Part shown: positions 20,615 to 59,120 of the stretch, one piece after another
How positions within the stretch are numbered: position 1 is the first letter of the stretch
Layout: every line of letters begins with the position of its first letter
NCBI GenBank assembly: GCA_001798855.1
Contig: MGQQ01000069.1
Coordinates: 1 to 59,236, forward strand
Length of the DNA stretch: 59,236 nucleotides
Source: Deltaproteobacteria bacterium RBG_16_49_23
GTDB taxonomy: Bacteria; Desulfobacterota; BSN033; UBA1163
Direction of reading: 5' to 3'
Notes under the pieces: model-generated
What the model was told of the DNA's origin: nothing
Databases searched by the model: none
Seen by the model: only the letters and a program-made list of their open reading frames with translations
Position numbers and translations under genes: made by a program

Positions 20615-20865
20615 TAAAATCCCCCTTTATCCCCCTTTGCCCTCCGGGTCAGTGACCGCTCTGGGTCGGAGACCAAAGGGGGATAAAAAAACATAACTGA
20701 GAGGTTACTCAAAAAACACTCCCAAATCCCGACATAGAAATTTACCGTCCACCGTAAATCCCCTCCCCTTGCGGGAGGGGACTAAGGGGAGGGGTAACCA
20801 TTCTGGTGATTTATCACCTTCACCCTAACCCTCTCCCGTCAAGGGAGAGGGGAATGATGGAGAAT
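20615..20865. repeat. Cluster of three palindromic repeats
   Basis: First comes a CCCCCTTTATCCCCCTTTGC / CAAAGGGGGATAAAA palindrome holding GGTCAGTGACCGCTCTGGGT; then CCCCTCCCC / GGGGAGGGG; then a CCTCTCCCGTCAAGGGAGAGG hairpin. Confidence 0.7.
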
Positions 20866-32106: not shown

Positions 32107-32350
32107 TATCTAATCCCCCTTCATCCCCCTTTGGTCTCCGACCCAGCCTCCGGCTCAGAAGAGCCTCTGGCTCGGAGAGAGCGGTCTCTGACCCGGTGGG
32201 CAAAAGGGGAAAATATTTTCTCCTCCCTTTGGTCTCCGACCCAGTGCGGTCTCTGACCCGGAGGGCAAAAGGGAGGTGGCCTGCCTGCGCGAAGCCCCGC
32301 CTCCAGAAGCCTTGCGGAGGGCAGGCGCTTCGGCGAAGGCAGGGGAGGGA
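32107..32350. repeat. Composite repeat with GGTCTCCGACCCAG units
   Basis: Several nested palindromes: CCCCTTTGGTCTCCGACCCA units, two GGTCTCTGACCCGG units, and a GCCTGCCTGCGCGAAGC / GCTTCGGCGAAGGCAGG hairpin. It fills most of the 402-base gap 32019-32420, in which no gene is seen. Confidence 0.75.
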
Positions 32351-42291: not shown

Positions 42292-42458
42292 ATTAAATCC
42301 CTCCCTACCTCCCTTTGCCCTCCGGGTCAGAGACCCCGCCTACCGGCAGGCAGGCGCTCTGGGTCGGAGACCAAAGGGAGGTCAATTACCCCTCTTTGGC
42401 CTCCGGCCCAGAGGGCCTCTGGTCCGGAGGGCAAAGAGGGGCTAGGGGAGATTTTGTG
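42292..42458. repeat. Nested repeat with GGGTCAGAGACC and GGGTCGGAGACC
   Basis: CCCTCCGGGTCAGAGACC and GCTCTGGGTCGGAGACC flank an inserted CCGCCTACCGGCAGGCAGG hairpin; a second palindrome (CCTCTTTGGCCTCCGGCCCA / GGAGGGCAAAGAGGGG) follows. Confidence 0.75.
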
Positions 42459-46110: not shown

Positions 46111-46434
46111 TTAGCGCTTACAGCGCTCCCCCGTTCGCCCTGAGGCCCTCGAAGGGTGATATCTGCGAGCCAATCGAGATACCTCCGCCCAATCTCCCCG
46201 CATCATTGCTTCCTTTTTCCTGCGACTCCAACCTTTAATCTGTCGCTCACAGGCCAATGCTTCCTCTCGAGTGGAGAATTCCTCTGAAAACAGCAGGCTA
46301 ACCGGAAGACGAGTCGAAGTATAGCCTTCGATTTCACCGAATTGATGTTTTTCTAAGCGCAACTCAAGATTATCCGTATGACCGGTGTAGTAGGAATTAT
46401 CTGCACAGCGCAAAACGTATACCCAAAAACTCAT
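46111..46434 (-). CDS. GIY-YIG nuclease-domain protein, copy 1
   Basis: The 107-residue protein opens VYVLRCADNSYYTGHTDNLE (the GIY-YIG motif as VYV...YYTG), with Arg in LRLEKH and Glu in REEALACERQIKGW. It is a stand-alone domain without a DNA-binding partner. The last 15 or so residues (YHPSRASGRTGE) are encoded by the left terminal repeat of its cassette and run past it. A near-identical gene is at 50499. Confidence 0.82.
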   Translation of the reverse strand: MSFWVYVLRCADNSYYTGHTDNLELRLEKHQFGEIEGYTSTRLPVSLLFSEEFSTREEALACERQIKGWSRRKKEAMMRGDWAEVSRLARRYHPSRASGRTGERCKR

Positions 46435-50496: not shown

Positions 50497-50896
50497 GTTC
50501 ACCCTGAGGCTCTCGAAGGGTGATATCGGCGAGCCAATTGGGATACCTCCGCCCAATCTTCCCGCATCATTGCTTCCTTTTTCCTCCGACTCCAACCTTT
50601 AATCTGTCGCTCACATGATAATGCTTCCTCTCGAGTGGGGAATTCCTCTGAAAACAGCAGTCTAACCGGAAGACGAGTCGAAGTATAGCCTTCGATTTCA
50701 CCAGATTGATGTTTTGCTATGCGCTCCTCAAGATTATCCGTATGACCGGTGTAGAAGGAGTTGTCGGCACAGCACAAAATGTAAACCCAAAAACTCATGT
50801 TCCTATTACCTCTTGCTTCTTTCAGCCATTAATAATATCGATCTACTCGTCCTTTGACCCTCAATAGGTTCACCCTTCGAGAGCCTCAGGGCGAAC
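50497..50896. mobile_element. Inverted-repeat cassette carrying GIY-YIG copy 2
   Basis: GTTCACCCTGAGGCTCTCGA with AGGGTGA at 50497-50523 and the inverted TCACCCTTCGAGAGCCTCAG with GGCGAAC at 50870-50896 enclose the gene. By eye it is about 90 percent identical to cassette 1 over the gene. Behind the right end, a further GGCCTGTCCTGAGGGAAGTC palindrome adjoins. Confidence 0.7.
50499..50798 (-). CDS. GIY-YIG nuclease-domain protein, copy 2
   Basis: The 99-residue protein opens VYILCCADNSFYTGHTDNLE and keeps the Arg and Glu of the fold (EERIAKH, REEALSCERQIKGW). It differs from copy 1 at about ten positions, one of them Arg to Cys in the second motif. Its stop codon is inside the left terminal repeat. 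AAGAGGTAATAGG precedes the ATG. Confidence 0.82.
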   Translation of the reverse strand: MSFWVYILCCADNSFYTGHTDNLEERIAKHQSGEIEGYTSTRLPVRLLFSEEFPTREEALSCERQIKGWSRRKKEAMMREDWAEVSQLARRYHPSRASG

Positions 50897-53974: not shown

Positions 53975-55165
53975 TCATATTATTACTGCCTTAAAGGCAA
54001 TGATCAAACGGGCACCGGCATCTCCTCCAAGAGTCGCCTGGTTTTTGCTGACGTTCCCGGAAGCCCCGGCGGTCGCCATGACCTTATAGGCATGGGTTTG
54101 AGATGCATCTGCGCCCGACGTGTTCCGGTATTGAGCCGAACCCGGAGTAGACCACCCACCTGTCAGAGATCCCCAGGTATTGTCATCTGAAGAGGCCCAC
54201 GCTGCAAAGACGAGGGCTCCGTCCGTGATCGTGGTGATCTCCGGAATGGTGACGGTGCGGGGTGCAGGGGGAGCGGCGAAGTTACCGGAAACCTGTGGTA
54301 CGTCTACTTCCCACACACTACTAGTGTTGGAAGGCCGGAAGACGTGCATGACGACTATATGGTTAATGACGCTACCGAAGGAAACGCTTGGATTGGGGAG
54401 AGTCCATGTGCCATTGAACCTACACCAGAAGAGCCTTATCCGGCAGTTGGCCTGGTTTTGCTGAGTCTCCGATGTCCAGCTTTGGCCTCCGGTGGAAGAT
54501 ATGGCGATTGTTGCCGTACTGTCGCGAGCTTGAGCTATCATCAGGACAAGATCGCCCGCCTGCATACTCCCGGGAGGAACTACCGCAGTTGGATTGGCGG
54601 TATTTGTCCCGTTATCGGCAGGAGTAGAGGCTGATCCAAAATAAGTAATTTCCATCAAAAAACTGGTAAAATTGGAGACCCTGATGCTCCTTCTTGCAGT
54701 GCCAACGGGAACTTCCCCGACGGAAGTCAGGGTGTCAAGATTGGGAGAGGTGTTGGTATAAGTCAAGGTGAATCTTCCTGCTCCAAGATTCCTTGTCATA
54801 CCGGTTAATCCGGCAAGCTCGGCTGGCGTTGTCCAACCATTGCCGTTAGCGTACCGGACAGCGAATTCCACTCCAGATTGGGCAATGAAGAAGGCCTGAT
54901 TGGAGCTGATAGTTAGAGAAACGGACTTTTGTTTGGTCGGGATCAGATAAGAGAAGACATAGCCGATGGAAACCATCAACATCATGGCAATGACCAGAAA
55001 GAGGACGGAAAGGCCTCTGGGATTATATAAAATCCCTCCCAACCTCCCTTTGCTCTCCGGGTCAGAGACCGCTCTGGGTCGGAGACCAAAGGGAGGGGAA
55101 ATCATCCCACTTTTACTAAGGGGGGGTGAGGGGGGATTATGTGTCTTTTGAATCATCATTCTCAA
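53975..55165 (-). CDS. PilX/MshP-like minor pilus protein with a large C-terminal domain
   Basis: The 396-residue protein has an N-terminal segment of which about 35 residues (PPSPPLSKSGMISPPFG onward) come from a repeat, then NPRGLSVLFLVIAMMLMVSIG, the PilX-type start, and QAFFIAQSGVEFAVRYA. Residues about 175-390 form a Thr/Ser/Gly-rich domain (DLVLMIAQARDSTATIA, HIVVMHVFRP) that resembles beta-rich surface or phage-fibre domains. It could be the tip adhesin; that is inference. The ATG overlaps the next gene upstream by four bases. Confidence 0.65.
   Translation of the reverse strand: MRMMIQKTHNPPSPPLSKSGMISPPFGLRPRAVSDPESKGRLGGILYNPRGLSVLFLVIAMMLMVSIGYVFSYLIPTKQKSVSLTISSNQAFFIAQSGVEFAVRYANGNGWTTPAELAGLTGMTRNLGAGRFTLTYTNTSPNLDTLTSVGEVPVGTARRSIRVSNFTSFLMEITYFGSASTPADNGTNTANPTAVVPPGSMQAGDLVLMIAQARDSTATIAISSTGGQSWTSETQQNQANCRIRLFWCRFNGTWTLPNPSVSFGSVINHIVVMHVFRPSNTSSVWEVDVPQVSGNFAAPPAPRTVTIPEITTITDGALVFAAWASSDDNTWGSLTGGWSTPGSAQYRNTSGADASQTHAYKVMATAGASGNVSKNQATLGGDAGARLIIAFKAVII
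55029..55140. repeat. GGGTCAGAGACC / GGGTCGGAGACC repeat in the PilX-like leader
   Basis: CCGGGTCAGAGACCGCTCTG with GGTCGGAGACC, inside CCCTCCCAACCTCCCTTTG / CCAAAGGGAGGGG arms, is read in frame ahead of the membrane segment. A CCCACTTTTACTAAGGGGG hairpin adjoins. Confidence 0.8.
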
Positions 55166-58270: not shown

Positions 58271-58310
58271 GTTTAAATCCTAAACAGTTCGTAGTTCAGT
58301 GTTTTAAAAA

Positions 58311-58352
58311 TGGGGTGATGGGGAGATGGGGGGATAGGGAGTCTATCACCCC
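58311..58352. repeat. Left flank of the S23 cassette, GGGGTGATGGGGAGATGGGG
   Basis: GGGGTGATGGGGAGATGGGG with GGATAGGGAG is repeated in inverted form at 59037-59095 on the other side of the S23 gene. GTTCGTAGTTC next to it likewise pairs with GAACCACGAACTCC at about 59108. Confidence 0.65.
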
Positions 58353-58587
58353 AACCTCAAAATTCACCGCCGTTTAGCTCCAGGTAGCAACCATTGCTGA
58401 GGATTATTAATCAAACTCACAATTTTTCCAAGAATATTGTCGTAAGTAATTGATATTTCTTGGAAGATATTTTCACTGAGATAACCACATCTTAAAGCAA
58501 ACTCCAACCAAACTTGAGTTTCAGCGGCCTCCGCTTCTGCGTCGCTCAATTTACTAAGGAAAGCTGCTTCGTAGCGTCTTTTTCGCC

Positions 58588-58854
58588 CCTCCGGGTCAGA
58601 GACCCAAAAATTTGTCCAAAGTTTTTTTCGAATGCTTCAATGAACGTTCTACCCATCTAGCTTCCGAACGTAAAGAATATTTTTTATAAGCGATTATCCG
58701 CCAAGGCAAGCCAGCCTTAGTTGATTTCACATGGCCAGCATTATGTTCTTTTAATCTTTTGTTTAAATCGTTAGTATGTCCTATGTAACGTCTGCCTGTA
58801 AGATCGCTATAAAGGATATATACAAACATTATTCTGCCCCTCTGGGTCGGAGAC
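58588..58854. mobile_element. GIY-YIG cassette inserted in the S23 gene
   Basis: The ends are CCTCCGGGTCAGAGACCC on the left and CCCCTCTGGGTCGGAGAC on the right, which are the two halves of the gene-less repeat seen at 20640, 42320 and 55060. Here a GIY-YIG gene lies between the halves. The insertion point is exact because the host gene can be rebuilt. Confidence 0.8.
58596..58829 (-). CDS. GIY-YIG nuclease-domain protein, third type
   Basis: The 77-residue protein opens MFVYILYSDLTGRRYIGHTN, the GIY-YIG motif (YIL...YIG), with Arg in NKRLKEHN and Glu in RWVERSLKHSKK. It is not a close relative of copies 1 and 2. The ribosome site GAGGGG and the TGA stop both lie in the terminal repeats. It is a stand-alone domain. 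Confidence 0.82.
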   Translation of the reverse strand: MFVYILYSDLTGRRYIGHTNDLNKRLKEHNAGHVKSTKAGLPWRIIAYKKYSLRSEARWVERSLKHSKKTLDKFLGL

Positions 58855-59036
58855 AAGCCTCTGATAGGTTAGCACATACCGATCTTGATGATCGACGCAC
58901 TTGATCTGTGAGTGAATAACGTTCCTCGATCGGAAAGGATCTGCTTTTCTCAAATATCTGCATAGCCGCTTCAAAGGCCATTTTATAAACATCTAAATCT
59001 CGATGAGTCCGAATCAATTTCTTTTCCATTTTCTAT

Positions 59037-59120
59037 CTCCCCATCACCCCATCCCCCTATCTCCCCATCTCCCTACCTCCCCATCTCCCTATCTCTACCA
59101 TACTCCGAACCACGAACTCC
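59037..59120. repeat. Right flank of the S23 cassette
   Basis: CTCCCCATCACCCCATCCCC with several CTCCCCATCTCCCTA units is the inverse of the left flank at 58311; ACCACGAACTCCGAAC follows. Confidence 0.65.

Follow-up and report, generated by a model that had tools for sequence, protein, structure and literature searches.

A hairpin-ended GIY-YIG nuclease gene inserted in an S23 gene, and the recurrence of such cassettes at one S23 point in other bacteria

What is a small nuclease gene, enclosed by the two halves of a dispersed palindrome, doing in the middle of an S23 gene, and how did it get there? The question arises from a 59,236-nt stretch of DNA (the window), which is one contig of the 3.8-Mb draft genome of Deltaproteobacteria bacterium RBG_16_49_23. 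A minus-strand S23/IVP gene running from 59029 to 58364 is interrupted there, and both of its pieces match the 23S_rRNA_IVP / four helix bundle profile. The N-terminal piece (58 codons, minus strand, 58856–59029), delimited by the ORF at 58829–59029 and by alignment to an empty site, matches PF05635 with an E of 2.6e-15 and lies over the Pfam cut-off (57 vs. 33.8 bits). The C-terminal piece (74 codons including the stop, minus strand, 58364–58587), delimited by the rejoined frame, was searched as 61 residues; it falls under the Pfam cut-off (PF05635 E 3.8e-6; 27.5 vs. 33.8 bits) and over that of NCBIfam TIGR02436 (E 3.3e-7; 30.5 vs. 24 bits). Between the pieces, which share a reading frame, lies a cassette of 267 nt (minus strand, 58588–58854, the position being certain to within a base or two). 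The frame of the N-terminal piece continues into this insert and stops at a TAA (58829–58831). The first two bases of the C-terminal piece finish the codon split by the insert, and the first start candidate listed for that piece is a TTG, 38 bases inside.

The insert is an imperfect hairpin whose loop carries a GIY-YIG nuclease gene, and it holds no second gene. The nuclease gene (77 codons, minus strand, 58596–58829, ATG at 58829) overlaps at its start the stop codon of the N-terminal S23 piece, in the string TAATG. Its match to PF01541 (E 3.4e-14, scored on an 86-residue reading from a TTG at 58856) identifies it as an open gene of a homing nuclease family; a copy with 92% identity is found in G002, a sister genome of the same genus. 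The Y, R, H, and E of the GIY-YIG columns, which we take to be the catalytic residues, are unchanged in three copies of the nuclease. The hairpin arms, CTCCG-GGT-CAGAG on the left (58589–58601, plus strand) and CTCTG-GGT-CGGAG on the right (58840–58852, plus strand), enclose 238 nt. An earlier reading of this DNA, made from its letters alone (the sequence-only reading), placed both the ribosome site and the stop codon of the nuclease gene in these halves. The stop codon (58596–58598) is indeed within the left half; the purine-rich stretch before the nuclease start (58836–58843) merely overlaps the right one. The DNA of the whole cassette folds no better than its shuffles (z -0.12).

Did the cassette enter the gene as a unit? 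Excision of 58588–58854 leaves a 399-nt, 132-codon S23/IVP (PF05635) frame without a stop, just as the sequence-only reading had claimed. Because 1158 of the 4225 start/end pairs that were tried also give an open frame, the restored frame alone is no proof of insertion. The proof is supplied by the sister genome G006, in which the site is empty: the ortholog is whole, and its 399-nt alignment with the rejoined window gene is free of gaps (81% nucleotide identity, 88% protein identity). The S23 ortholog of a further sister genome, G005, is likewise whole (82% protein identity). The gene next to S23 in the window is present on both contigs as well, with the order kept, but other DNA (about 3.2 kb in G006, about 3 kb in G005) separates it from S23. 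The GGGTC 12-mer of the repeat, GGGTCNGAGACC, whose presence in intact relatives was held beforehand to be incompatible with insertion as a unit, is absent from the S23 stretches fetched from G006 and G005. Comparison with G006 reveals neither loss nor duplication of bases where the window gene is split, save for an ambiguity of one or two bases, which exists because C repeats at the boundary. The site is therefore base-exact only to within that ambiguity; the insertion in G002 is at the same base.

A second S23 gene of the window's genome, on contig C103, also contains a cassette, and its intact syntenic ortholog is present in G009. At the C103-type insert, up to about five target bases were lost. 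Target-site duplications were seen neither at the window site (vs. G006) nor at the C103 site (vs. G009). Both sites thus combine a defined insertion point with empty alleles in relatives, as homing elements do.

We then asked how widely S23 genes are split in this way. Using an S23 profile built in this analysis, 148 loci were scanned (146 with a nuclease hit), drawn from the window's own genome, its relatives, and a pattern scan of a species-genome collection (best 80 of 96 relatives). S23 pieces stood on both sides of the nuclease, ordered and on the same strand, in 12 of the 146 loci, or nine after repeated fetches were merged. The C103 locus (L005), of which the C side alone passed and the N piece was identified via the G006 ortholog, brings these to ten. 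With orthologs counted once, eight S23 genes have a GIY-YIG cassette, always on the S23 strand: those of the window, G002:C55 (L069), a Pseudomonadota MAG (L140), C103 together with G006:C63, G245, G022, G054, and G069. All eight are split between columns 55 and 59 of the S23 alignment, where the motif A-N-x-x-E-[GA]-[WYFN] is encoded. The chance of such a shared split point is 2.5e-8, a figure that assumes uniform insertion and disregards the harder detection of splits near gene ends; S23 makes up about 0.1% of a genome in this estimate. All eight pieces tested against Pfam exceeded its cut-off (both pieces of L069, L219, and L221; the N piece of L224 and L140). The contig of L140 holds a second nuclease gene as well.

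Three loci call for separate mention. A ninth S23 locus, in G169 (L226 = G169:C87), looks decayed; by eye, two gene-less copies of the C103 type are nested in it, one in the nuclease gene and one in the S23 C piece, and six end motifs are present. L057 has weak S23 matches (1e-4 and 0.004) and pieces that look decayed. In L063, a nuclease like those of two other cassettes in the window lies beside an S23 fragment that is broken elsewhere (profile position 31).

The nucleases at the S23 point belong to two groups. One comprises those of the window, L069, and L140 (support 94/87), and the other surrounds C103, where S23 insertions are mixed with insertions outside S23. The ends are of at least three kinds: the GGGTC hairpin, CTCCGCCCCGTAGGGCGTAG..CTACGCCCCGGAGG, and CCCTGTTAAATA..TATTTAACAGGG; the ends of L057, CCCCGTTAAATA..TATTTAACGGGG, differ from the last by a matched change on both arms. 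In the nuclease tree, no fewer than four label changes are forced by the starred branches; the group that contains the window's S23 cassette falls just below a star. Two or more origins at S23 are a reading of the tree rather than a proof, because 86 columns resolve few deep forks.

The two other GIY-YIG cassettes of the window (46111–46434 and 50499–50798) have TTCG-type palindromes, with exact inverted repeats of 16 and 22 nt. Both occur in G006, but the corresponding intergenic stretches of G002 showed neither. The S23-cassette nuclease shares 33% identity with theirs and sits on a separate starred branch; it had been called unrelated, which here means a distant branch of the same GIY-YIG superfamily. 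The accompanying suggestion that each palindrome family has its own GIY-YIG gene agrees with the GGGTC ends of the S23 cassette, the TTCG-type ends of the other two, and the CCCTGTTAAATA ends of another group. The rule is not strict: G005 and G007 have GGGTC sites although no close copy of this nuclease was found in them, and the end motif of the L069 cassette is unrepeated in its genome.

How old are the inserts? Between the window and G002, the insert is identical at 252/267 positions, the two S23 pieces at 163/224 and 156/175, and the neighbouring gene at 926/1186. Correspondingly, dS is 0.21 for the nuclease, 0.48 for the S23 N piece, and 1.30 for the neighbour pilC, and it is saturated for the S23 C piece. 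The C103 insert is identical to that of G006:C63 at all 277 of 277 positions, whereas the S23 pieces around it have dS values of 0.64 and 0.70. In two species pairs, the compared sequences thus show inserts that are younger than their flanks, as expected of homing; the inserts therefore arrived at that point, or were renewed there, once the flanks had already diverged. Judged from these alignments, the age contrast is a mark of homing-like spread, although no clear co-conversion of the flanks shows. In the window–G002 pair, identity drops at both insert borders (23/30 on each side), and no co-conversion tract is visible. In the C103 pair, the S23 pieces (152/176 and 172/190) are more alike than the outer flanks (346/417 and 238/289), a difference that coding constraint may explain. 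The observation made in the sequence-only reading is confirmed and its interpretation supported; because cassettes recur at a single position in S23 and are younger than their flanks, the case is stronger than was stated there.

Which process would account for these features? We think it reasonably probable that the insert is a minimal selfish element of the homing type, made up of a small GIY-YIG gene and hairpin ends, with cutting as its presumed activity. It went into the S23 gene whole, at a conserved position. Its nuclease would cut uninterrupted S23 alleles near the conserved motif, and repair would then copy the element in from a filled copy, as in "intronless" homing endonuclease genes. 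The hairpin CCTCCCTTT..AAAGGGAGG would be another candidate substrate. The nuclease is probably read from the S23 transcript, because it is on the same strand and its start codon overlaps the S23 stop; the cassette would thus live on S23 transcription. S23 genes, which exist in multiple copies and are probably dispensable, would be the family in which it lands. The gene-less hairpins would represent non-autonomous kin that settled in the loops of intergenic palindromes, and this step is the weakest link of the scheme.

The comparison of repeat ends suggested in the sequence-only reading supports it: gene-carrying and gene-less copies share the same arms, which are 4 nt apart in the simple gene-less copies. 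GGGTCNGAGACC occurs 108 times exactly in the genome (reversed control, 5), and the window has 12 sites at no more than one mismatch (shuffles: mean 1.49, largest 6). The 100 listed of these 108 GGGTC places form 56 clusters, including the S23 site of the window, and 33 of the 44 spacings below 300 nt among them are exactly 17. In the nine other genomes of the genus, the number of 12-mer sites ranges from 0 to 15 (reversed controls, 1 to 4). No close copy of the window nuclease was found in G005 (13 sites) or G007 (15 sites).

The halves of the repeat had been described as adjacent at three places in the window. They are four bases apart at 20642–20671 (plus strand, with a mismatch in one arm) and at 55055–55084 (plus strand); at 42320–42369 (plus strand), 24 nt with another palindrome separate them. 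Two more gene-less copies, one with a CTCCG..CGGAG hairpin nested in its loop, lie at 32133–32259 (minus strand). Gene-less hairpins occupy the loops of host palindromes, CCTCCCTTTG..CAAAGGGAGG or CCCCCTTTTG..CAAAGGGGG. The copy at 55055–55084 is in a loop of the former kind; it is also present in G002 and absent from the G006 stretch examined. Host-type palindromes that are unfilled, with loops of 3–4 nt, are also found in the window. Together with the host palindrome, three gene-less copies give folds well beyond those of their shuffles (z -4.39 to -4.65). CTCCG..CGGAG-class hairpins are found nested in one another's loops (window 32133–32259 and 42320–42369; L285 1068–1170), where they occupy the place in which the nuclease gene of the S23 cassette sits.

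Cassettes of the C103 type have gene-less counterparts as well. Their end motif, CCCTGTTAAATA, occurs 46 times in G022 (reversed, 0) and 0 to 6 times in 19 other genomes tested, and the gene-less copies examined that have both ends measure about 40 to 150 nt. The L265 copy (G054) retains both ends intact around 28 nuclease residues (50% identity, E 2.9e-7 within 200 nt). This remnant is the clearest sign that gene-less copies derive from gene-carrying ones, although it belongs to a C103-type element and not to the window's. In G022 (46 sites), L251, L262, L269, and L275, we noted elements of about 95 nt with CCCTGTTAAATA..TTTAACAGGG ends and near-identical insides; many CCCTGTTAAATA sites are at contig ends. 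For the L069 cassette, G002 offers no further exact copy of the 13-nt end motif; three copies are found in the window's genome, as part of another repeat. Exact inverted repeats of at least 12 nt flank the nuclease gene in 18 of 121 usable loci, compared with 2 of 482 mismatched pairings, in a test that passes over imperfect ends such as those of the window cassette itself.

The window's repeat resembles two known kinds of element. Like a miniature inverted-repeat transposable element (MITE), it has terminal inverted repeats common to gene-carrying and gene-less copies, and the L265 copy has the MITE-like form of an internal deletion that keeps both ends; unlike MITEs, these elements have produced no visible target-site duplication. 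Like a REP, it is a short palindrome with many copies that are intergenic, as judged from flanking palindromes rather than annotation. REPs and REPINs with their RAYT are multi-copy short palindromes, mostly intergenic, some in genes, with the enzyme gene beside or between them (PMC3116915, PMC3733652). The present elements share each of these properties; they differ in that a GIY-YIG nuclease takes the place of the Y1 HUH transposase.

Might the hairpins, then, be ordinary REPs or REPINs moved by a Y1 (RAYT-type) transposase, with the GIY-YIG gene a passenger trapped once and the S23 hit a rare REP insertion? We regard this explanation as unlikely, albeit the best of the alternatives. Eight Y1_Tnp matches in the genome exceed the family cut-off, there are about 55 gene-less clusters for the single gene-carrying one, and the 12-mer is present where no close nuclease copy was found. 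The elements, however, are not beside the Y1 genes: within at most 1.5 kb a side (four stretches being shorter), the GGGTC motif is near only one of the eight Y1 loci, with another gene between. Nor does a trapped passenger explain why two nuclease groups with different ends strike the same S23 point. On inspection, neither GTAG nor CGTC, the REP end tags, was at the hairpin ends; CCTC, named as a variant of CGTC (PMC3733652), occurs at the left end. The role of the nuclease in spreading the gene-less GGGTC copies is only associative; genomes without a close nuclease copy hold some of the hairpins.

A somewhat less probable explanation is that insertion was random and that the only survivors fall at the turn linking the two parts of the four-helix bundle, where a bundle encoded by a gene in pieces can reassemble from two chains. 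Constraint does seem to act on the S23 pieces (dN/dS of roughly 0.10 and 0.03 for the C103 pair); this constraint may predate the young insertions. The motif is near the end of helix 2 in a low-confidence single-sequence model of another S23 (mean pLDDT 51.9), and phage split genes that retain function provide a precedent (PMC2988022). On the other hand, the first start listed for the C piece is the internal TTG already mentioned, the pieces of L226 and L057 look decayed, and survival alone would not give identical inserts in two species.

Homing-type insertion is also to be preferred to a swap in which ordinary recombination exchanged the complete interrupted locus among species, with the nuclease uninvolved. 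Sister genomes do show a mosaic over the initial 60 bases of S23 (G005 differs from the window at 2 of 60 positions there, against 77% identity gene-wide), which speaks for such a swap. Only the insert is young, however, and the S23 pieces on either side are clearly older. The swap is thus already disfavoured, and we consider it very improbable. Removal of the insert from RNA, or its bypass by the ribosome, is hardly credible: the arms can pair in principle and the window's S23 pieces are in the same frame, but positions 58300–59100 gave no Rfam match up to E 1, and thus no group I ribozyme core, there is scant room for a ribozyme beside a 77-codon gene, and no matched take-off and landing codons were seen by eye.

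The closest precedents for a homing-type element without an intron come from phages. T4-like phages carry free-standing GIY-YIG seg genes and the gene-splitting mobE in Aeh1 nrdA and mobA in T4 gene 60, and the way in which homing nuclease genes came to lie in nrdA and in gene 60 is transposition-like (PMC2988022). Like seg, mobE, and mobA as portrayed there, the window element is a lone nuclease gene, without an intron, that splits or adjoins a conserved gene and would spread in a site-directed manner; several of the phage genes are, moreover, promoter-less cassettes. The differences are that the window-type element is in bacterial chromosomes, that its protein is small (77 residues in the window), that it has hairpin or inverted-repeat ends and gene-less copies sharing them, and that two nuclease groups have the same target point. 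The nuclease had no match at E 1e-5 in phages or plasmids. IMG/VR yielded one C103-type locus, which lies 77 nt ahead of a tRNA-Lys gene, and none of the window type.

By profile, the nearest solved structures are the UPF0213 proteins 1zg2 (2.4e-8) and 1ywl (2.5e-5) and, weakly, SLX1 (0.017). Neither UPF0213 proteins nor SLX1 are known as parts of mobile elements. SLX1 is a structure-specific nuclease that acts on branched DNA; the window nuclease may similarly act on hairpin or cruciform loops.

Genes other than S23 also host small GIY-YIG nucleases. A tRNA gene is within 250 nt in 70 of 121 usable loci, compared with 32 of 1361 control intervals from the same loci; at some of the 70, the aragorn calls overlap the extended nuclease frame, an overlap that the control ignores. 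At many of the tRNA-adjacent loci, a piece of the tRNA of at least 12 nt recurs across the nuclease gene. Small GIY-YIG genes adjoin or interrupt tRNA genes in L042–L047, L051, L052, L229, L232, L234, and many of L139–L211; in L047 and L052, by eye, a palindrome follows a 5' piece of tRNA-Ser that ends at the anticodon. ORF6N genes hold cassettes of the C103 type, clearly in L218 (PF10543, 4.2e-12) and weakly in L227 (0.011, below the cut-off). The cassettes of L218 (1501–1752), L227/L053, and L223 (the last by eye) are near the 3' ends of ORF6N genes and have inverted-repeat ends of the same kind.

That related cassettes have entered other bacteria at this very S23 position points to a type of mobile DNA about which little is known. 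In the titles and abstract starts of the openly licensed literature searched, a GIY-YIG nuclease combined with dispersed palindromes or with S23 is not described. A broader proposal, which we advance tentatively and would not yet favor over its negation, is that small GIY-YIG nucleases are the mobility enzymes of widespread, undescribed, hairpin-ended elements of about 270–300 bp. These would have clade-specific palindromic ends, target fixed points in S23, tRNA, and ORF6N genes, and leave gene-less palindromes behind as a source of some REP- or MITE-like repeats for which no enzyme is known at present. The proposal joins homing nucleases and dispersed palindromes, which are usually treated apart. 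Should the hairpins be moved by the nuclease, a mobiliser would be at hand for some orphan palindromic repeats of uncultured bacteria, and S23 genes would become a known target. The tRNA-adjacent small nucleases in Bacteroidota, candidate phyla, and others would be an overlooked class of tRNA-gene parasite, and a nuclease of 77 codons whose site is defined would also be a naturally occurring site-directed cutter of very small size. Another RNA gene may be mentioned here: in L050, a GIY-YIG gene lies slightly upstream of an SRP RNA-like gene that we recognised by eye.
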